A stretch of 64,000 nucleotides of DNA from positions 1 to 64,000 of the forward strand of contig NZ_JARWOJ010000330.1 of NCBI RefSeq assembly GCF_029868625.1, given 5' to 3'. A program made the translations under genes and the position numbers. This DNA is from Nocardia neocaledoniensis. Lineage in GTDB: Bacteria; Actinomycetota; Actinomycetes; Mycobacteriales; Mycobacteriaceae. Of this stretch, positions 42,000 through 50,733 are shown piece by piece. A model generated the notes under the pieces. That model was given only the letters and a program-made list of their open reading frames with translations, made no database searches and was not told where the DNA came from. Within the stretch, counting starts at the first letter, position 1, and the number at the start of each line of letters is the position of its first letter.

Positions 42000-42022
42000 A
42001 CCTCACCCGTTCAGGGTGAGGT
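42000..42022 (-). terminator. 9-bp hairpin at the end of the reductase gene
   Basis: ACCTCACCC (42,000-42,008) and GGGTGAGGT (42,014-42,022) are perfect reverse complements around a 5-base loop that includes part of the stop codon of the minus-strand reductase gene. It probably terminates the SDR-reductase operon. Confidence 0.6.
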
Positions 42023-43108
42023 TCGGGGCAACCGGGCGGGGTCCGCCAGGCCGTTGCCGGTGATCAGCGGCAGGTCGAGGGTGGTGCGGATGCCCGGCGC
42101 CGCGGCGACGACGGCGGGAATGGCGTTGACCAGGCGCATGGCGGTGCCGACGAGACTGGCGTGGTTGTGGTCGCCGTGATCGCTGAACATGGCCAGGTCG
42201 AGGGTGTAGTGCGGTTCGCCGGTGACCTCGACCCGGTAGGACCCGCCGGCGCGGGCGGGTTGTGGCCAGTCGGGAGCGAGGTCGGCGCGCAGCCGGGTGA
42301 CGTGTTCGAGGACTGTCACCGCCCGGTCGCCGACCACGCCGCGGACCTCGAACCGCAGGGCTGCCGCCGTGCCTTCGGCGATGGTGCCCGAGTCGATGTC
42401 GAAGGCCTCGGGCGCGGGCAGCCGCTCGAAATCCTGGGTGACGGCGTCGAGTTCGACGCCGAGGCCCGCGGCCAGCTGGCGCACCACGCTGCCCCAGGCC
42501 AGCGACAGCACCCCCGGCTGCAACAGCAGCGGGGTGTCGGTCATCGGGCGGCCGAAGCCCATGATGTCGAACATGACCGCGGCGTTGTCGTAGGTCGAAT
42601 AGTCGACGATCTCGAGGCAGCGCACCTGCTCGACGGCGCGACAGGTGCCGAGCAGGGCCAGCGGCAGCAGGTCGTTGGCGAAACCGGGGTCGATGCCGTT
42701 GACGAACAGCGACGAACCACCCTGTGCGGCAGCATGTTCCACCGGTTCGAGCAGCTCGGCGGGCAGGACGTCCCACGGGTGCTGCAGGAACACCGGCGCG
42801 CTGGCCACGACGTTGATCCCGGCCGAGAGCAGCATGCGCAGGTCCGCCAGCGCGTCCATCAGCCGGTTGTCGGTCATGGCCGTGTAGACCACGCAGTCGG
42901 GACGCGCGGCCAGGATCCGCGCGGTATCGGTGGTGGCGAGAACGCCGGAGGCGGTGGGTGTTCCGGCGAGTTCGGCGGCATCCCGCCCCGCCTTCTCCGG
43001 CCCCGAGACGTGCACGCCGACCAGCTCGAGTCGGGGGTCGGCCAGCACGCCCGCCAGCGCGTGCCGTCCGACATTGCCTGTGCCCCAGTGCACTACACGA
43101 TGCGTCAT
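42011..43108 (-). CDS. NAD(P)-dependent reductase/amine dehydrogenase-like (DapB-type Rossmann fold)
   Basis: A 365-residue oxidoreductase with an N-terminal dinucleotide fold VVHWGTGNVGRHALAGVLAD and a middle domain like dihydrodipicolinate reductase/2,4-diaminopentanoate dehydrogenases (NGIDPGFANDLLPLALLG). Such actinobacterial proteins act on steroid or terpenoid-type ketones or amines, but the substrate is unknown. ATG 43,108 has AGGA upstream. It begins 8 bases after the SDR gene, so they form an operon controlled with the divergent IclR-like gene. Confidence 0.83.
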   Translation of the reverse strand: MTHRVVHWGTGNVGRHALAGVLADPRLELVGVHVSGPEKAGRDAAELAGTPTASGVLATTDTARILAARPDCVVYTAMTDNRLMDALADLRMLLSAGINVVASAPVFLQHPWDVLPAELLEPVEHAAAQGGSSLFVNGIDPGFANDLLPLALLGTCRAVEQVRCLEIVDYSTYDNAAVMFDIMGFGRPMTDTPLLLQPGVLSLAWGSVVRQLAAGLGVELDAVTQDFERLPAPEAFDIDSGTIAEGTAAALRFEVRGVVGDRAVTVLEHVTRLRADLAPDWPQPARAGGSYRVEVTGEPHYTLDLAMFSDHGDHNHASLVGTAMRLVNAIPAVVAAAPGIRTTLDLPLITGNGLADPARLPRTSP

Positions 43109-43116
43109 GGTCGTCC

Positions 43117-43908
43117 TCACAGATCGGGAAGGGGGATGGTGAGATTGGGGGCGATGAGCCCGCCGTCGACCTCGAGGACCTTCCCGGTGAGGAACGAGCC
43201 CGCGGGCGAGGCGAGAAACAGCGCGGCCGCGGCGATGTCTTCGGGCCGGCCGAGGCGGCGCAGGGGAGTGGCCTGTTCCATCTGCCCGCGCATGTCGTCG
43301 TTGCCCGCCACGACGGCCAGCGCCGAGGTCAGGATCGAGCCCGGCGCGATGGCGTTGACCCGCACGCGCGGGCTCAGATCCATGGCGGCGGAACGGGTGT
43401 AGTGCGCGAGGGCGGCCTTGGCGGTGGCGTAGGCGGCGAACGCGCGGCCGGGGAGCCTGCCCATGGTCGAGGTGATGTTGACGACCGAGCCGCCGTCGGC
43501 GGTGGCGAGCATCTTCGGCACCGCGGCCCGCACCAGGGCGTGCGCCGTTCCGACGTTGAAGGCGAACGCCTCGGCGAGATCGTCGGGGGCGGTGTCGAGC
43601 AGCGGCCTCGGCAGGGCGCCGCCCACATTGTTGACGACGGTGTCGAGGCGGCCGAACCGCGTCACCGCGGCCTCGGCCAAGCCGGCGACGGCGTCGTGAT
43701 CGGCGAGGTCGGCGACGACGACGTGCGCCTGCCGTCCCGCGGCTTCGATCTGGCCGGCGACCTCGCGCAGGTCGGATTCGGTGCGCGCGGCGATCACCAC
43801 GTCGGCACCCGCCTGGGCGAAACCGAGGGCGATGGCGGCGCCGAGCCCGCGGCCCGCACCGGTGACGACGGCGACCCGGTCGTCCAGCCGGAAGTGGTCG
43901 AGAATCAT
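43117..43908 (-). CDS. Short-chain dehydrogenase/reductase (SDR)
   Basis: A 263-residue classical SDR. The cofactor motif is [22 protein letters not shown] is the NNAG-type structural motif, catalytic Ser lies in [11 protein letters not shown] and the active pair is YATAK (Y near residue 157). The C-terminal [10 protein letters not shown] is a typical ending. It interconverts a hydroxyl and keto group with NAD(H) or NADP(H). AAGGTGGG precedes ATG 43,908. It is divergent from an IclR-like regulator with two dyads in the gap, its likely control. Confidence 0.9.
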
Positions 43909-43923
43909 GATCCCACCTTGTGT

Positions 43924-43958
43924 GTCGAATATTCGACTAATCTCTGGCGAATAGTCGA
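43924..43958. promoter_or_regulatory. Two 12-bp dyads between SDR operon and IclR-like gene
   Basis: GTCGAATATTCGAC (43,924-43,937) is a perfect 14-bp palindrome. GCGAATAGTCGA (43,947-43,958) matches its core TCGAATATTCGA at 10 of 12 positions, starting 22 bases further on, two helical turns away. They lie in the 91-bp gap between the two starts and are probably the binding sites of the IclR-like regulator. Confidence 0.75.
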
Positions 43959-43999
43959 AGCAGTGTAGGGCCGGTGCCGCCGGCGAACAAGGGGTTGTC

Positions 44000-44896
44000 A
44001 TGCCGGAATCCGCGTCGCCGCCGACCCGCCGGGTCATCGAGGTGATGGAGTTGCTGACGCGCACCGAGCGCGCGCTGACCGCGTCGGAGGTCGCCGCGGC
44101 GCTCGGGCACGCCCGCGCCACCGTCACCGCGGTGCTGACCGAATTGGCCGAGGCGGGCTGGGTGCGCCGCGACCGGCAACGCCGATTCGCGCCAGGGCCC
44201 GCGCTGGCCATGCTGCGCCCGGTCACGGTCGAGGTGCCGAACGCGGCGGCCGGTGCCGCGCTGAAGGCGCTGGCGGTCGCCGCGCACTGCGGCGTGACAC
44301 TGAGCCGGATCGCCGACGGCAGGCTCATCGTGGTGGCCAAGGAGTACGCCCCCGGCGCGCGGATCCTGCCCGGACTCGCGGTGGGGCAGTCGATTCCGCT
44401 GGGCTATCCGGCCGGCGCCGCCGTGATGCCGTGGCGGGGCGAGGCCGAACGAGGCGCCTGGCTCGCGAGCGCGAACGGCCCGGCGCGCCGGGGCGCACCG
44501 GCGCTGCTGCGGTTCGTCACCACCCACGGGTGCGCGGTGTTCCGTCCCGACTCCGACGACGCCGGGCTGGTCGAGGTGCTCGCGGAGTTGCTCGGGGCGG
44601 TCGGCGCCGAGGTGGTGCAGCCGGAACTGCGCACCCGCGTCCTGCGTCAGCTGGCCCGCCTCACCGCGCGCCCCTATCGCGACGCCGATCTCGACAGCGC
44701 CGAGCTCATCCCCGTCAGCTATCTGTCCGCGCCGGTGTTCCTCGGTTCCGAAGCGCCGTACGAGGTGCAGATCGGTCCACTGCGCGCCTCGGTCAGCAAG
44801 GCCGAGCGGGCGGATTACGTCGCGGCGATCCGGACGGGCGCCGCGGCGCTGTCGGCGGCGCTGAGCGGGCCGGGGGCCGATACCGGCATTCATTGA
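44000..44896 (+). CDS. IclR-like transcriptional regulator
   Basis: A 298-residue regulator: N-terminal winged helix ([20 protein letters not shown], then [20 protein letters not shown]; about residues 11-60) and a large ligand domain (about 75-290) with [18 protein letters not shown] and [12 protein letters not shown] in the positions of the IclR effector domain. It is divergent from the SDR/reductase operon and probably autoregulated. The ligand may be the substrate of that operon. A CCGTAC-N6-GTATGT dyad just after its stop belongs to the next gene. Confidence 0.85.
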
Positions 44897-44907
44897 AGTA
44901 CAGACTC

Positions 44908-44925
44908 CCGTACTCGATGGTATGT
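44908..44925. promoter_or_regulatory. CCRTAC-N6-GTAYRG dyad, site 1 (multicopper oxidase)
   Basis: CCGTAC, six bases, GTATGT. It lies 47 bases before the multicopper oxidase start. The same pattern recurs at 46,773, 49,812 and 49,834. A further AGTAC-N8-GTACT dyad overlaps it on the left (44,897-44,914). Confidence 0.6.
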
Positions 44926-44972
44926 TCGCTCGCGCGGCGCCCGCGACGGTGCCGCGCGAGAAGGGTTCGACC

Positions 44973-46763
44973 ATGGAGCATTCGATCGAGCGCCGTCGGT
45001 TCCTGCGGGTGGCGGGCGCCGGCCTGCTCGGCGTGGTCGCGGGGGAGTCGGTGGCGGCTGCCGCGCCCACCGCCCCGCCGGGGCCCCTGCTGTTCCGTTC
45101 CCCCGTGGTCGAGCCGTTCGTCGACGAGCTGCCCCGCCTCCCCGTGCTGCGTGGTGACCGGCTCGAGCTCGTGGCCGGAACCACGACGCACCGGTTCCAT
45201 CGTGACCTGCCTGCGTCACCGTCGTTGGGCTACAACGGGATGAGCTATCTGGGCCCGACGATCGAGCACCGTGTCGGCACGCCGCTGCGGCTGCGCTTCG
45301 AGAACCGGATGAGCGTCCACCCGCTGGCCGCGGACATGGATACCAGCCTGCACGGCGTCGCCGAGAGCTTCCGCGCCGCGCCGCCCGCCTCGCTGCACCT
45401 GCACGGCGGCGTGACGCCACCCGACAGCGACGGGCATCCCGAGCGACTCGTCCATCCCGGCGGCGGTATCGAGCACCGGTTCCCGTTGACGCAGGACACG
45501 GGCCACCTCTGGTATCACGATCACGCGATGGGTATCACCCGCGTGAACGTCTACGCGGGGCTGGCCGGAACGCTGTTGCTGCGCGACGAATTCGACACCG
45601 GCGCACCCGGCAATCCGCTCGGCCTGCCCGCGGGGGAGTTCGAGATCCCGCTGGTGCTGCAGGAGAAGCTGTTCACCGCCGACGGGCGCCAGTCGGTCCG
45701 CTCGACCCCGATCGTGCCCGAAGGCCGCTGGGAGGGCGGGGCCGTGGGTGATGTCGGGGTGGTCAACGGGAAGATCTGGCCGTACCTGCCGGTGGCGCGT
45801 GGCCGGTACCGGTTCCGGGTGCTCAACGCGGCCTCGTTCAGTGTCTGGAATCTGTTCTTCGGCAATCGGATGCGGTTCTGGGTGATCGGCAACGACCACG
45901 GCCTGCTCGACGCACCGGTGGCCGTGCACGAGCTGCGGTTGGCGCCGGGGGAGCGGGTGGACCTGCTGGTGGACTTCACCGAGCTGGCGCCGGGTGAGAC
46001 CGTCGAGCTGTGCAACGACGAGGCGCCGGTGTTCCAGGCCGCCGTGCTCGGCGAGGTCGCGATGCCGCGCTTCTGCCAGTTCCGGGTGCTGGATCGGCCG
46101 GGCTTCACCGGCGCGATTCCGCGGCAGCTGCGCGGCGGCACGGGGCGACCACGGGCGTTGCCGCCCATCGAGACGCCGACGGTGATCCGCGATGTCACCG
46201 TGAGTCAGCCCTATGAGCTCCGCGTGCCGCCGGCGATCATGTCGCTCAACAATCTGCGCTTCACCAGTCCCGATATCGAAATGCCGCGACAGGGCACGGT
46301 CGAGCAGTGGAACATCATCAACATCACCCCCGACCCGCATCCGATTCACCTGCACCTGGTCACTTTTCGCATTGTCGGCCGCACGCCGCTGCGCACCGTC
46401 GACTACCAGCTCGCGCACCCGCAGCCACCGATCGGCCGGAAATGGGCGCCGTCGGCGGCGGGGTTCCTCGCGGGTCCGACCCGGCCGCCCGCCGCCTGGG
46501 AGGCGGGCAGCAAGGACATCGTGCGTGCCGACGGCGGGACCGTCACGAGCATCGTCGTTCGGTTCCCCACCGCGGCGGAGCTCGGTTTCGATCCGGACGC
46601 GCCGTTCCCTCGTCACGAGCCGGGTGAGCCGACCGGCGGCGACGGCCACGGTGGGCGGCACGGGGGTGAGCACACGGGCGAACTGCGGGGCTACGTCTGG
46701 CACTGTCACCTCCTCGATCACGAGGACCACGACATGATGCTGAAGTACCGGATCGTGCCCTGA
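44973..46763 (+). CDS. Multicopper oxidase, Tat-exported (CotA/phenoxazinone-synthase-like)
   Basis: A 596-residue laccase-type oxidase. The start has a twin-arginine signal (ERRRFLRVAGAGLLGVVAGE), so it is exported folded. Copper ligands are visible: HLHGG (H142, H144), WYHDH (H182, H184), HPIHLH, and WHCHLLDHEDHDM near the C-terminus, the last matching HCHxxxHxxxxM with Met as axial type 1 ligand. It oxidises phenols, bilirubin-like or metal substrates and reduces O2 to water. A His/Gly-rich loop (GDGHGGRHGGEHTGE) precedes the last motif. It has its own dyad operator and precedes the MpaB operon. Confidence 0.93.
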   Translation: MEHSIERRRFLRVAGAGLLGVVAGESVAAAAPTAPPGPLLFRSPVVEPFVDELPRLPVLRGDRLELVAGTTTHRFHRDLPASPSLGYNGMSYLGPTIEHRVGTPLRLRFENRMSVHPLAADMDTSLHGVAESFRAAPPASLHLHGGVTPPDSDGHPERLVHPGGGIEHRFPLTQDTGHLWYHDHAMGITRVNVYAGLAGTLLLRDEFDTGAPGNPLGLPAGEFEIPLVLQEKLFTADGRQSVRSTPIVPEGRWEGGAVGDVGVVNGKIWPYLPVARGRYRFRVLNAASFSVWNLFFGNRMRFWVIGNDHGLLDAPVAVHELRLAPGERVDLLVDFTELAPGETVELCNDEAPVFQAAVLGEVAMPRFCQFRVLDRPGFTGAIPRQLRGGTGRPRALPPIETPTVIRDVTVSQPYELRVPPAIMSLNNLRFTSPDIEMPRQGTVEQWNIINITPDPHPIHLHLVTFRIVGRTPLRTVDYQLAHPQPPIGRKWAPSAAGFLAGPTRPPAAWEAGSKDIVRADGGTVTSIVVRFPTAAELGFDPDAPFPRHEPGEPTGGDGHGGRHGGEHTGELRGYVWHCHLLDHEDHDMMLKYRIVP

Positions 46764-46772
46764 CGGCGAATT

Positions 46773-46790
46773 CCATACTTTCAGGTACGG
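46773..46790. promoter_or_regulatory. CCRTAC-N6-GTAYRG dyad, site 2 (MpaB operon)
   Basis: CCATAC, six bases, GTACGG, the best match to the shared pattern. It begins 10 bases after the multicopper oxidase stop and ends 59 bases before the oxygenase start. A complementary AGTATGG (46,807-46,813) also pairs with CCATACT (46,773-46,779). Confidence 0.65.
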
Positions 46791-46849
46791 GAAAAATGTG
46801 CTTCATAGTATGGTCTACCTGACACGCAGCGACCGCCAGGAGGTCATCG

Positions 46850-48088
46850 GTGAAGTGCCCCACCGCCTTTCGCTATTGGGAAGCGCGCAGCACGCCGACC
46901 GTGCGCCGGGTCGAACGCCTCTTCACGAGGGTGACCGGGCAGCGGTTGTTTCCCACCGACGAGCAGGCCACCGCGCTGTGCGCGGACCTGTTCACCGGTG
47001 ACCCGGTGGCCGAACGCTTCGTCGCCGAGGTGATGCACGGCGAGATCGGGCCGAAAGCCGGACGCCGGATGCTGGAGACCGCGCTGGCCGAGGGCATCGA
47101 CACGGTCCCCGACGCACCGGCATCGATGCGCGCCTTGTTCGCCGAGTTCGAGACCGTGCCCGACTGGGTCGTGCCCGAGCTCGTCGAACAGGGCGCGGCG
47201 ATCTGGCGGCGCTGGGGGACCATGCTGTTCAGCTTCGCCGGCGCCGAGACACTCGAGATGTACACCGAGGCCGCGGTCGCGACCCCGCTGTCGCTGGCGG
47301 GCGGCTACGCGGGTGACAGCGCGCTGCGCCGGTTCCTCGAGACCACCCGATTCTGGATGGATGTCTCGGCCGAAGGCGCGCTGCTCACCCCGGGTTCGGC
47401 CGGGCGGGCGACCGCGCTGAAGGTGCGGGTCATGCATGTCTCGGTGCGGGCCAAGGTCGCCGAACACCCCGAATGGGATATCGAGCGATGGGGTCTGCCG
47501 ATCAGCCAGACCTACCAGATGCTCACCCTGCTCGCCGGAAGCGTGACGCCCGGCCTCGGCCTGTGGGCGCTGGGCTACCAGACGACGCCGTCGGAAATCC
47601 GTGCGCTGCTGCACTTCCAGAAGTACATGGGCCATCTGCTCGGCGTGCGGCTGCGTTGGTATCCGGAGACGGTCGGCGACGGGCTGCGGGTCCTGGCGAT
47701 GACGATCGCGTCGCGCTCCTACGACTCCGGTGAGCACGGCCGCGAACTGATCGAGTCCTATCCCGCGGCCTTCGCGCCGCGCGACGGACACCGCGGCCTG
47801 ACCCGGCTGCGCGACATGTACAACTACCGCATCAATTCCGTGTACTCGGCGATGTACATGGCACCGGGCACCCGCCGCCGGTACACCATGCCGCCCGCGT
47901 TCCCGTGGATCCTCGTCCCGATCCTGCGCTTTCCCCTCATCACGGTGCTGGAGATCGCGCGCCGGGTCTGTCCGCCCTTCGCGCGGGCGCACGAGAAGCT
48001 CATGCTCGCCCACCGCGAGAACTGGTATCGCGCCCAGATGCGAGGTCGCGAAGCGGCCTTCGACGCCAGCGGCGCCCTGCGCCGATGA
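46850..48088 (+). CDS. MpaB/Lcp-like heme oxygenase (DUF2236 family)
   Basis: A 412-residue protein of the oxygenase MpaB (DUF2236) family, which includes the latex-clearing protein Lcp, a heme b dioxygenase that cleaves polyisoprene, and the fungal MpaB that cleaves a farnesyl chain. The key motif R193-x2-H196-x3-R200 (KVRVMHVSVRAK) gives the predicted heme ligand His with its Arg neighbours. Unlike exported Lcp it has no Tat signal, so it may act on an intracellular isoprenoid or lipid. GTG 46,850 has AGGAGG 8 bases upstream. Its stop overlaps the next gene (ATGA). Confidence 0.87.
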   Translation: MKCPTAFRYWEARSTPTVRRVERLFTRVTGQRLFPTDEQATALCADLFTGDPVAERFVAEVMHGEIGPKAGRRMLETALAEGIDTVPDAPASMRALFAEFETVPDWVVPELVEQGAAIWRRWGTMLFSFAGAETLEMYTEAAVATPLSLAGGYAGDSALRRFLETTRFWMDVSAEGALLTPGSAGRATALKVRVMHVSVRAKVAEHPEWDIERWGLPISQTYQMLTLLAGSVTPGLGLWALGYQTTPSEIRALLHFQKYMGHLLGVRLRWYPETVGDGLRVLAMTIASRSYDSGEHGRELIESYPAAFAPRDGHRGLTRLRDMYNYRINSVYSAMYMAPGTRRRYTMPPAFPWILVPILRFPLITVLEIARRVCPPFARAHEKLMLAHRENWYRAQMRGREAAFDASGALRR

Positions 48089-49161
48089 ACCGACCGAAAG
48101 CAGCCATGACAGAAATCGTCGAAGTATGGAACGGACCCGGCCGTCGCGACGCGGTCCTCACCGAGGTCCAGCCGCACCACAACGGATTCCATCCCGCCGC
48201 GAGCAAGCTCGCCTTCGAACACTGGTACTTCGACGCCCATCTCGACACCGGCCACGTGGTGATCGGCTTCCTGATCCGGCGCAGGCCGGAGGACCTGCCG
48301 TGGTCGCGGCCCTGGGTGGAGATGATCGTCTACGCCCCCGACGGCACCCGGCGCCAGGTGTCGCGGCGCTACCCGCACTCGGCCACCGCGTTCTCGCCCG
48401 ACGCCTGCGACGTCCGCATCGGAGCGAACACCGCGCGCACCGAGCACACCGACGGCCTGCCGACCCACCATCTGCGGATGCGGGAGGACGGGGTCGCGTT
48501 CGACCTGCGATTCCACAACGAGGTCCCCGGCTGGATGCCCGGCAAGGGCGAAACCCGTTTCGGCACCGCGGATTCCTTCGGCTGGATGGTCGGTGCGCCG
48601 CGAGCCGTGGTGCGCGGGTCGATCGAACTCGACGGTGTGCGGCACGAGGTCACCGGGCGTGGGTATCACGACCACAACTGGGGCGTCGGCGACATGAAGA
48701 AGATCATCGAGCGCTGGCACTGGGGCAGGCTGTACGTCGAGGACTACTCCCTGCTGTACGCCTCGGTGCTCACCCAGCAGCGCGCGGGTGGTCACGAGAT
48801 CAGCCCGCTCATGCTCGCGCACGACACCGAGATCGTGTTGTCCACCGGCGAGACCGAGCTCACCGAGGGGCCCGCGCGCTTCGACGCGACCGCGGGCCGC
48901 ACCTACCCCGAGTGGATCGAGCTGCGTGTCCCCGGCGAACTGGAACTGCGACTGGAGGTTTCGCGGGTCATCCACGCCCACGATCTGCTCGACGATCTGC
49001 CCGTGGTGCGGGCCAGGCCGATCAAACCGCTGGTGCGCCGGCTGGTCGGGCATCCCGGCTACTTCCGCTTCGAATCCGCCTTCGAATTGACCGTGCGCAC
49101 CGGCGCAGGCGCCGAGACGCGGTCGGGCACGACGCTGCACGAACTCGTCGCGTTGACCTGA
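48085..49161 (+). CDS. CrtC/AttH lipocalin-like protein
   Basis: A 358-residue protein with the twin lipocalin-like fold of carotenoid 1,2-hydratase (CrtC) and AttH proteins. Matching segments are KLAFEHWYFDAHLDTGHVVI, RGYHDHNWGVGDMKKIIERW and HWGRLYVEDYSLLYASV. Such barrels bind or hydrate hydrophobic polyenes or steroid-like molecules. The start overlaps the oxygenase stop by four bases; ATG 48,106 is an alternative. Coupled synthesis suggests that it handles the substrate or product of the MpaB-like oxygenase. Confidence 0.83.
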   Translation: MNRPKAAMTEIVEVWNGPGRRDAVLTEVQPHHNGFHPAASKLAFEHWYFDAHLDTGHVVIGFLIRRRPEDLPWSRPWVEMIVYAPDGTRRQVSRRYPHSATAFSPDACDVRIGANTARTEHTDGLPTHHLRMREDGVAFDLRFHNEVPGWMPGKGETRFGTADSFGWMVGAPRAVVRGSIELDGVRHEVTGRGYHDHNWGVGDMKKIIERWHWGRLYVEDYSLLYASVLTQQRAGGHEISPLMLAHDTEIVLSTGETELTEGPARFDATAGRTYPEWIELRVPGELELRLEVSRVIHAHDLLDDLPVVRARPIKPLVRRLVGHPGYFRFESAFELTVRTGAGAETRSGTTLHELVALT

Positions 49162-49168
49162 GGGCGGT

Positions 49169-49786
49169 TCATCCGGGTGGCTGCTCGCTGGTGATGAATC
49201 GGAAGAACTCGCGGCGCTGCTCCTCGGTCGGCACCGGCAGGTTCTGATTGCCGTGCACGAAACCGATTCCGGCGAAGCACATCACGCCGGCGCGCAGCTC
49301 CGCCTGGTCCGCGGAGAACCCCATGTCGACCAGCGTGCCCGCGAGGGTATGGAAGATGCGCTGGTCCAGTGCCCTCACCGCCTCGGCGACCTTGGCGTTG
49401 GTGCGCGCCCAGTCGCGCACCGCGAGCTCGACCTGCCACACCCGCTCCCCGGTGAGCAACTCACCCATCCTGGCCAGCCGTTCCTGCGGGGGCAGGTCGT
49501 CGAGATCCTGGAAGCCGCGGGCCGCGTCGTTGTGATCAGCGCACCAGAACTGCGCGGTGGTCTCCAGCAGCTGGTCGATGCCGTCGAAGTGCCAGTAGAA
49601 GCTGCCCTTGGTGACGCCGAGTTCCTCGCACACCTTGGCGATGGTGATCGCGGCGACGCCCTCGCGCAGCAGTATCCTCAGTGCGGCGGCGGTCCAGTCC
49701 TCGACACCGAGCCTGCGTGCCGCTCCCCGCGCCGACGCCGCTTTGCGTTTGGACACCGGCGCCGGCGGCCGCGAATTCTCGGTCAT
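49169..49786 (-). CDS. TetR family regulator, likely controller of the oxidase/oxygenase regulon
   Basis: A 205-residue repressor: HTH ITIAKVCEELGVTKGSFYWHF (about 48-68) and a C-terminal ligand domain. The FYWHF variant is typical of the group. ATG 49,786 begins the normal basic N-terminus; the frame runs further upstream without family match. It is convergent with the lipocalin gene (7 bases apart) and divergent from the LLM gene. The gap upstream carries two copies of the dyad also found before the multicopper oxidase and the oxygenase operon, so it probably controls all of them and itself. Confidence 0.88.
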   Translation of the reverse strand: MTENSRPPAPVSKRKAASARGAARRLGVEDWTAAALRILLREGVAAITIAKVCEELGVTKGSFYWHFDGIDQLLETTAQFWCADHNDAARGFQDLDDLPPQERLARMGELLTGERVWQVELAVRDWARTNAKVAEAVRALDQRIFHTLAGTLVDMGFSADQAELRAGVMCFAGIGFVHGNQNLPVPTEEQRREFFRFITSEQPPG

Positions 49787-49811
49787 GCCCTCTTCCTTCC
49801 GGCCACGCCGA

Positions 49812-49829
49812 CCGTACTCGGCCGTACAG
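49812..49829. promoter_or_regulatory. CCRTAC-N6-GTAYRG dyad, site 3
   Basis: CCGTAC, six bases, GTACAG, 26 bases upstream of the TetR start (minus strand). It is one of two copies in the 110-bp gap between the TetR regulator and the LLM oxidoreductase; a dyad here fits autorepression. Confidence 0.6.
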
Positions 49830-49833
49830 TCGA

Positions 49834-49851
49834 ACCTACCAAAGGGTATGG
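49834..49851. promoter_or_regulatory. CCRTAC-N6-GTAYRG dyad, site 4
   Basis: ACCTAC, six bases, GTATGG. The right arm is perfect and the left arm keeps the TAC core. It starts 22 bases after site 3, two helical turns away, and ends 45 bases before the LLM oxidoreductase start. Confidence 0.5.
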
Positions 49852-49896
49852 GACCGTCGCGGAATAAGTGGCTCGGTGGCCCGAGTTGCCCCCGGC

Positions 49897-50733
49897 ATGA
49901 CCAGAGATGATCTCGGAACATTCGGTGTGTGGCGCCATTTCCAGGGGTTCACGCCCGAAGCGGCTCGCGAGCTCGAAGAGCTCGGATACAGCGCGCTGTG
50001 GCTCGGCGGGTCGCCACCGGCGGACCTGCGGACGGCCGAAACCCTGGTGGCGGCGACCGAGTCGCTGACCATCGGGACCAGCATCGTGAACATCTGGACC
50101 GCGCCCGCCGACGTCGTCGCCGCATCGTTCCACCGGATCGACCAGCGGTTCCCCGGCCGCTTCCTGCTCGGTATCGGGGTGGGTCATCGCGAGGCGAACG
50201 GACCGGGCGCGGTGAAACCCTACGACGCGCTGGTGGCGTATCTGGACGACCTCGACGCGGCGGGAGTGCCGAAGGAGCGCAGGGCGCTCGCGGCCCTGGG
50301 ACCGCGGGTGCTGGAACTCGCCCGTGACCGCACCGCGGGCGCGCTGCCCTACCTCGCCCCGCCGGAGCACACCGCGATCGCCCGCACGTCCCTCGGCGCG
50401 GACGCGCTGCTGGTCGCCGAACAGAAGGTCGTCGTCGACGACGATCCCGAGCGCGCGCGTGAGATCGCCAGGTACATGGTGCCCATGTACCTGGGACTGG
50501 TGAACTACGTCAGCAATCTGCGCCGGTTGGGATTCTCCGAGGAGGACCTCACCGCGCCGGGTAGCGACCGGCTGATCGACATCCTCGCGATCCACGGCAC
50601 GCCCGCCGCGATCGCCGCCGGCTTGGTGGCGCACGTGGACGCCGGCGCCGACCACGTCGCGATCCAGGCGCTGAACCAGGACTACCTCGCGGCACTGCGC
50701 GCGCTGGCGCCGGAGCTGCCGTTCGCGCGGTGA
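49897..50733 (+). CDS. LLM class F420-dependent oxidoreductase
   Basis: A 278-residue luciferase-like (beta/alpha)8 protein of the F420-type group seen in mycobacteria and Nocardia. Characteristic segments are GVWRHFQGFTPEAARELEEL, GYSALWLGGSP, TIGTSIVNIWTAPADVVAAS and GRFLLGIGVGHREANGPGAV. Such enzymes use deazaflavin F420 (or FMN) to reduce or oxidise lipids, aldehydes or cofactor-linked alcohols. ATG 49,897 fits the family N-terminus. It is divergent from the TetR gene and lies beside a double operator, so it is probably part of the same regulon as the oxygenase cluster. Confidence 0.87.
   Translation: MTRDDLGTFGVWRHFQGFTPEAARELEELGYSALWLGGSPPADLRTAETLVAATESLTIGTSIVNIWTAPADVVAASFHRIDQRFPGRFLLGIGVGHREANGPGAVKPYDALVAYLDDLDAAGVPKERRALAALGPRVLELARDRTAGALPYLAPPEHTAIARTSLGADALLVAEQKVVVDDDPERAREIARYMVPMYLGLVNYVSNLRRLGFSEEDLTAPGSDRLIDILAIHGTPAAIAAGLVAHVDAGADHVAIQALNQDYLAALRALAPELPFAR

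Follow-up and report, generated by a model that had tools for sequence, protein, structure and literature searches.

A TetR-linked tandem-dyad regulon in Nocardia neocaledoniensis and its relatives, with a possible role in the breakdown of prenyl-bearing hydroquinones or phenols

TetR-controlled catabolic regulons that include an Mce importer are known for sterols (KstR/Mce4), the KstR and KstR2 regulons with Mce4 being those of actinobacterial cholesterol catabolism, while for many Mce systems and MpaB-type oxygenases we know of no assigned substrate. The locus considered here lies in a 64,000-nucleotide stretch of Nocardia neocaledoniensis DNA (contig NZ_JARWOJ010000330.1, positions 1 to 64,000; the window in what follows), in which a multicopper oxidase (MCO), an MpaB/Lcp-type haem oxygenase, a CrtC-like double lipocalin and a TetR-family regulator are encoded next to tandem pairs of one inverted repeat, or dyad. 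The existence of a regulon with a shared operator is well supported by comparison with related genomes. With a confidence only a little above even, it is further proposed that this regulon controls how a hydrophobic hydroquinone or phenol with a prenyl chain is taken up and oxidatively broken down, and that its full form, found in relatives, is an import-and-degrade module; both the substrate class and the order of the steps are deduced from gene content.

Three described enzymes are of help in reading the gene set. The MpaB of mycophenolic acid formation is reported to cleave a prenylated phthalide within its prenyl chain, at the terminal unit (PMC12724181), and kievitone hydratase hydrates a phenol at its prenyl chain (PMC5805349). 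For the rubber oxygenase LcpK30, PMC5522427 lists R164, T168, H198, R195 and R202 as active-site, haem-ligand or stabilising residues, and gives a conservation of 59% among Lcps for the distal lysine.

Tandem dyads and the TetR regulator

The preliminary description of this DNA had reported the pattern CCRTAC-N6-GTAYRG at four sites. A scan of the window, with the expectation taken from its shuffles, gave exact matches at 46773 and 49812 (0.02 expected), but the copies at 44908 and 49834 carry one and two mismatches, respectively. With up to two mismatches allowed, 16 matches were found against 16.2 by chance, so that imperfect dyads weigh nothing singly. Two additional imperfect dyads, at 44886 and 46796, had been overlooked, which brings the number of sites from four to six; the three places named there, ahead of the MCO, ahead of MpaB-CrtC and in the gap from TetR to an LLM gene, hold, each being occupied by a tandem pair (offsets of 22 bp for pair A, 23 bp for pair B and 22 bp for pair C).

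Pair A, upstream of the MCO, consists of dyads A1 (44886..44903, two mismatches), the right half of which, GTACAG, lies 17 bp ahead of a −10-like TATGTT, and A2 (44908..44925, one mismatch), 47 bp ahead of the chosen MCO start. Pair B, upstream of MpaB-CrtC, is made of B1 (46773..46790, exact) and B2 (46796..46813, two mismatches), the right half of the latter with the next base reading TATGGT, a −10-like hexamer. Pair C occupies the gap between tetR and the LLM gene, with C1 (49812..49829, exact) 25 bp ahead of the tetR start and containing a −10-like TACGGT on the minus strand, and C2 (49834..49851, two mismatches) 45 bp ahead of the LLM start. The dyads themselves are listed without strand.

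When the whole source genome (7.24 Mb, 432 contigs) was searched for the paired pattern, with up to three mismatches and offsets of 22 and 23 bp, only pairs A, B and C were recovered, along with one copy on contig C384, while the reversed pattern used as a control gave no paired match in the same genome. The C384 copy was rejected as a fourth genomic pair: the last 138 bases of that contig (C384:19978-20115; L003:1421-1558) are the reverse complement of window positions 46733-46870 and stand behind a G/C homopolymer run, so that it is taken to be a misassembled contig end, that is, an artefact that creates a false extra pair B. The single dyad was discarded as a genome-wide marker, since 20 genomes together contain 77 exact matches to it and 71 to the reversed control.

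Of 150 Nocardia genomes, 91, among them the source genome, contain a match to MpaB at 1e-60. Sixty stretches were fetched, 57 of which hold an MpaB of at least 70% identity, and in these loci the dyads are found mainly upstream of MCO, MpaB or tetR. In 53 of the 60 stretches CCRTAC-N6-GTAYRG forms 63 tandem pairs, 49 of them at 22 bp, 13 at 23 bp and one at 21 bp. A pair of the palindrome CCRTAC-N6-GTAYGG occurs in 49 of the 57 loci with an orthologous MpaB, the lower figure being due to the stricter form, whereas 119 permuted half-sites gave a mean of 0.07 loci and a maximum of seven, the latter reached by CCATRC, which closely resembles the motif itself. No tandem pair was found in the 12 loci that hold MpaB relatives of about 50% identity; locus L119, with an MpaB of 33% identity, was excluded from both the 57 and the 12. 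These more distant relatives (L117, L118 and L132-L141, from Nocardia and sister genera) have different surroundings, without TetR, CrtC or dyad pairs.

Beyond Nocardia, one contig scan with the CrtC alignment was used, and among its best 80 of 90 loci 43 come from other genera; its named Nocardia loci, from which the genus was judged (N. neocaledoniensis being the closest, CrtC 92%), are mostly duplicates of the genomes already fetched and were left out of the counts. In 37 of the 43, a dyad carrying no more than one mismatch precedes MCO, hydrolase or MpaB by less than 1100 bp. The dyads of these genera are single or overlap at a 5-bp shift, 21-23-bp pairs being confined to three loci. Of the six loci without a dyad so placed, L183, L192 and L217 lack those genes on the stretch examined, while L190, L215 and L216 have the genes and no dyad. 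Comparison of the regions upstream of orthologous clusters, as the preliminary description had advised, supports its suggestion of one TetR-linked dyad set over the MCO, MpaB and CrtC genes, with pairs or dyads kept in both groups of loci. One kind of putative operator links Mce systems and MpaB-type oxygenases across Nocardia, Rhodococcus, Gordonia, Williamsia, Dietzia, Nocardioides, Aeromicrobium and Amycolatopsis.

The putative binder of the dyads is the TetR-family regulator encoded at 49169..49786 on the minus strand (PF00440, 42.5 bits, cut-off 24), the recognition helix of which, LGVTKGSFYWHF, is conserved across 67 aligned sequences. In related genomes conserved palindromes are found both at the target promoters and at tetR itself, TetR-side pairs having been found in other loci as well (5). 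Moreover, in three genomes pairs far from the locus directly precede further genes of the TetR family (G110 near 227 kb, with an offset of 24 bp; G168 near 5,578 kb; G169 near 6,926 kb), the products of which have a nearly identical recognition helix, LG[AT]TKGS[FA]YWHF, so that the match between TetR and dyad is supported from outside the locus. TetR genes with the same kind of dyad pair at the 5' end are located at L272:5323-5939, L300:3951-4568 and L301:4124-4756; perhaps they make up a small TetR family with a common operator.

The position of the dyads also suggests how they would act. On the operon side, 58 distinct pairs were compared. In 53 of them the downstream dyad ends, together with one further base, in a right half that has the form TAnnnT (TATGGT in 37). 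In 54 the upstream dyad has GTACCG, GTACGG or GTACTG as its right half, which at an offset of 22 bp is placed 17 bp before the right half of the downstream dyad, and at 23 bp 18 bp before it. From this spacing we infer that the two dyads cover the −35 and −10 elements and that TetR, bound to tandem dyads with the half-site CCRTAC, would keep the target promoters off by occlusion until a hydrophobic inducer relieves the repression. Promoter constraint could contribute to the conservation of the 22-bp offset.

Enzymes of the window and of the wider cluster

All the genes named in the preliminary description (MCO, PF09995 and PF07143 proteins, TetR and an F420-type LLM enzyme of TIGR03620) were recognised in the window. 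The MCO (44973..46763, plus strand) is a Tat-type protein of the CotA laccase/PhsA kind with three cupredoxin Pfam domains over their cut-offs (PF07731, PF07732 and PF00394) and, by eye, the copper histidine motifs HLHGG, WYHDHAMG, HPIHLHL and HCHLLDHEDHDMM; its start was set by an RRRFL motif, also recognised by eye, and the open reading frame (ORF) could begin at 44922. Its closest PDB matches are CotA-type laccases, and its score against NF045554 is 224 bits, under the cut-off of 950.

The MpaB/Lcp-type protein (46850..48088, plus strand; PF09995, 52.4 bits, cut-off 23) has no Tat motif or hydrophobic signal discernible by eye at its N-terminus. Its profile matches LcpK30 with an E value of 2e-11 and it keeps equivalents of R164, T168, H198, R195 and R202, its own H196 and R161 being invariant and T165 nearly so in 30 sequences. 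The column of the distal K167 of LcpK30 is taken by an invariant glutamate, so that the distal lysine expected of an Lcp proper is absent. With the structural model (pLDDT 86), only 5o1l and 5o1m were matched under an E value of 0.001.

The start of the CrtC/AttH-type double lipocalin (48085..49161, plus strand; PF07143, 28.3 bits, cut-off 22.5) overlaps the MpaB stop in ATGA. Against the carotenoid 1,2-hydratase model NF045922 it reaches 24.4 bits, far from the cut-off of 400. The best fold matches of its structural model (pLDDT 92) are fungal pericyclases (Z 27.5, rmsd 3.0, 298 residues aligned), and NE1406 is matched too, as are kievitone hydratase (Z 23.4, rmsd 4.0, over 289 residues) and 25-phosphosteroid lyase (Z 20.9, rmsd 3.9, over 276 residues). 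As modelled, the protein thus resembles enzymes that hydrate or eliminate at prenyl or steroid side-chain carbons, and pericyclases as well. Tocopherol cyclase is not among the fold matches listed, which excludes nothing.

From ORF clustering and tblastn maps, a wider form of the locus was recognised in relatives, with the order TetR / MCO - hydrolase - MpaB - CrtC - homogentisate dioxygenase (HGD) - aldehyde dehydrogenase (ALDH) - CoA transferase, CrtC coming last in some loci (e.g. L181, L184 and L197). Mce genes frequently adjoin it. A dyad precedes same-strand MCO-yrbE-mce genes, which we take to form one transcript, in two Rhodococcus loci (L267, sp. IEGM 1381, and L279) and in one of Nocardia (L299), and in Nocardioides marmorisolisilvae (L271) a dyad precedes yrbE-mce. 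Gene counts from these limited stretches are lower bounds. The 57 Nocardia loci contain at least 45 CrtC, 50 TetR, 19 MCO, 8 hydrolase, 9 HGD, 9 ALDH, 1 CoA transferase, 5 Mce and 2 LLM genes; for 45 loci of other genera the corresponding minimum figures are 41 MpaB, 44 CrtC, 18 MCO, 24 hydrolase, 23 HGD, 26 ALDH, 18 CoA transferase, 27 TetR and 16 Mce, with no LLM. Remnants are seen in some Nocardia (short HGD and ALDH pieces in L047, a partial hydrolase and ALDH in L091, and further remnants in L035), and stepwise loss of the operon seems common in this genus.

The cluster dioxygenase, which is encoded in the full clusters and not in the window, scores 637 bits against TIGR01015 (cut-off 510.75), and the dehydrogenase is closest to StyD (607 bits, under the cut-off of 800). 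Identity of the former with the HGD of the tyrosine pathway was rejected on linkage: in 18 genomes, 12 fumarylacetoacetase (FAH) genes over the cut-off were found, none of them beside the cluster dioxygenase and all adjoining a different, low-scoring HGD relative (49-65 bits), and six of the ten genomes with a TIGR01015 match over the cut-off have no FAH over its own. In G539 the cluster gene is split into two frames and falls under the cut-off. Those cluster enzymes that were detected through their motifs have PP[HY]FHRN and SLH[NT]x[WF]xxHGPD in common. The separation from FAH and motifs unlike those of Pseudomonas putida HGD suggest that the cluster dioxygenase probably cleaves another hydroquinone acid. 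The HGD relative linked to FAH (G000:C431:30285-31438 and 11 other genomes) is so divergent, at 49-65 bits against 510.75, that TIGR01015 would miss it.

With these assignments, a route can be drawn in which the exported laccase-like MCO would oxidise the phenol or hydroquinone head, the Mce importer (yrbE-mce) would take up the hydrophobic substrate and the CrtC-like lipocalin would add or remove water at the prenyl chain. MpaB would then cleave the ring-proximal C=C bond to an arylacetaldehyde and a ketone, the aldehyde dehydrogenase would convert the arylacetaldehyde to a homogentisate-type acid, and the cluster dioxygenase would open the ring. Since the sequence from arylacetaldehyde to homogentisate-type acid to ring opening fits the gene set, a prenylated hydroquinone is preferred over rubber or a carotenoid, and prenylated hydroquinones such as tocochromanols or prenylquinones are likely substrates. 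The earlier idea of a hydrophobic lipid has accordingly gained from the Mce genes behind the dyad in some relatives, the Lcp residues of MpaB and the CrtC-like fold, but not in its form of a plain isoprenoid or carotenoid: HGD, the phenylacetaldehyde-dehydrogenase-like enzyme, CoA transferase and hydrolase point towards a prenyl hydroquinone instead, and rubber or carotenoid as the specific substrate is not supported. In the open-access literature searched, no account of the cluster or of a bacterial route for these lipids was found in the opening lines of the abstracts listed.

A more specific proposal, possible though doubtful at present, is that of a dedicated aerobic actinobacterial pathway that imports and mineralises tocopherols, plastoquinone, phylloquinone or ubiquinone. 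With this assumption, the MCO and the CrtC-like protein would create a ring-proximal alkene, MpaB would make an ozonolysis-like cut that yields an arylacetaldehyde, and the aldehyde dehydrogenase and the special dioxygenase would go on to open the alkylated ring. Such a pathway would amount to a reversal of the way in which vitamin E and plastoquinone are built from homogentisate, with Mce as a vitamin or quinone importer.

The genes that flank the locus in the window appear to be neighbours. The F420-type LLM oxidoreductase (49897..50733, plus strand; TIGR03620, 353 bits, cut-off 219.8), which the preliminary description had placed in the regulon, was removed from it, as orthologues are found in only two of the 57 Nocardia loci (L030 and L080) and in none of the 45 others. 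On the other side (42011-44896), SDR and 2,4-diaminopentanoate-dehydrogenase-like genes diverge from an IclR gene and form a separate small unit; all three were rejected as members, for they adjoin the locus only in the close relatives L030, L031 and L080. The gap between SDR and IclR contains no dyad with two or fewer mismatches.

Alternative readings of substrate and regulator

Several observations weigh against the proposed regulon and route. Other genera are arranged differently, with 21-23-bp pairs in only three of 43 loci, and the single exact dyad is as frequent genome-wide as its reversed control. Some dyads far from the locus have no assigned role, namely those of G110 near 2,942 kb and of G543 C3 and, in the L212 genome (C46), two exact dyads 25 bp from each other. 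The same is true of an identical exact dyad that lies far from the locus in two Nocardia, between the same, seemingly unrelated genes (L274:4526-4543 and L275:4130-4147; near 5,824 kb in G110 and near 4,958 kb in G038). Off-locus pairs with three mismatches are found in G152 C1 and in G051 near 7,169 kb. Membership of the wider cluster is patchy, even if the counts are lower bounds (MCO in 19/57 and 18/45 loci, HGD in 9/57 and 23/45, Mce in 5/57 and 16/45), a second TIGR01015 dioxygenase is found outside the cluster in G545, and pericyclases are the top fold matches of the CrtC-like model, for which hydration or elimination is a candidate reaction only. Finally, a search of the source genome gave no relative of the hydrolase at 1e-30, and none of its HGD matches passes TIGR01015. 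It cannot, therefore, run the full route, and the window holds a reduced version (MCO, MpaB-CrtC and TetR) that would only begin it.

The reduced form is common in Nocardia, with HGD found in only nine of the 57 loci, as would be expected if a partial conversion were useful alone, and this favours a role in detoxification or recycling, of prenylated defence phenols of plants or fungi or of the cell's own damaged quinones, with carbon use secondary. The fold relatives of the CrtC-like protein include kievitone hydratase, which is associated with the defence of fungi against a prenylated plant compound (PMC5805349). However, the importer, ring cleavage and CoA transferase of the full form have the look of carbon use, and this reading appears improbable. 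We also consider it unlikely that the regulon serves plain isoprenoids (rubber oligomers, carotenoids or terpenes), with the aromatic genes incidental. MpaB does share fold and active-site residues with LcpK30, nitrile rubber is a target of a Gordonia protein from the MpaB family (PMC12724181), and CrtC owes its name to a carotenoid hydratase. Nevertheless, in some Nocardia and in other genera the operon also encodes a dioxygenase for ring cleavage and an enzyme resembling phenylacetaldehyde dehydrogenase, the CrtC-like protein scores only 24 bits where a carotenoid 1,2-hydratase needs 400, and no secretion motif is seen by eye in MpaB. The chances are smaller still for a regulon of sterol or other lipid degradation in which the dioxygenase is a borrowed spare part. 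The Mce association recalls the Mce4 cholesterol system, and 25-phosphosteroid lyase is among the fold relatives of the CrtC-like protein, but in several genera the dioxygenase is retained along with the dehydrogenase, and no steroid-ring gene was recognised among the 45 of 137 ORF clusters listed, a weak check made by eye on short N-termini.

As for the regulator, the coincidence of the pairs with the −35 and −10 elements implies that promoter geometry alone could fix the 22-bp offset, and some off-locus dyads have no assigned TetR. The dyads could then be sites of another regulator or mere promoter elements, with TetR a bystander. This is very unlikely, as both halves of the palindrome are conserved, the dyad is also found 5' of tetR and of TetR paralogues away from the locus whose recognition helix is almost identical, and its position relative to the genes varies in other genera. 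A TetR-controlled route for prenyl-bearing hydroquinones or phenols is the preferred reading. If it is correct, MpaB/Lcp oxygenases would gain a catabolic role beyond rubber, and the regulon, from which a substrate class is predicted, could be used as an inducible sensor that responds to hydrophobic aromatic lipids.

Comparison with described systems

The regulon as a whole is closest in design to those of KstR and KstR2 with Mce4, with which it has in common a TetR repressor, palindromic operators and the combination of an Mce importer with catabolic operons. It differs from them in the operator and in the enzymes, which here are MCO, MpaB, the CrtC-like protein, HGD and ALDH.

At the level of the single enzymes, the MpaB of the window shares with LcpK30 (5o1l and 5o1m) the fold and the equivalents of the residues listed in PMC5522427, but it is only 19-20% identical to it, has a glutamate in place of K167 and shows no secretion motif on inspection by eye. 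The mycophenolic MpaB and the bacterial Nro1 also belong to this haem oxygenase family, and the prenyl cut made by the former resembles the step proposed here; however, it serves a biosynthetic pathway, whereas Nro1 is shorter (reported as 323 residues) and acts on synthetic rubber (PMC12724181). Kievitone hydratase (7a0q and 7a0t) has the CrtC/AttH double-barrel fold and a substrate, the prenyl chain of a phenol (PMC5805349), of the kind envisaged for the CrtC-like protein, but it is fungal and only 16-18% identical to the latter. The HGD of P. putida (3zds) is aligned over its full length by the cluster dioxygenase, which also passes TIGR01015. The P. putida enzyme is distinguished by PPWFHRN and SLHGVMSAHGPD, where the cluster enzymes have PP[HY]FHRN and SLH[NT]x[WF]xxHGPD and, in the genomes searched, are not encoded next to FAH.

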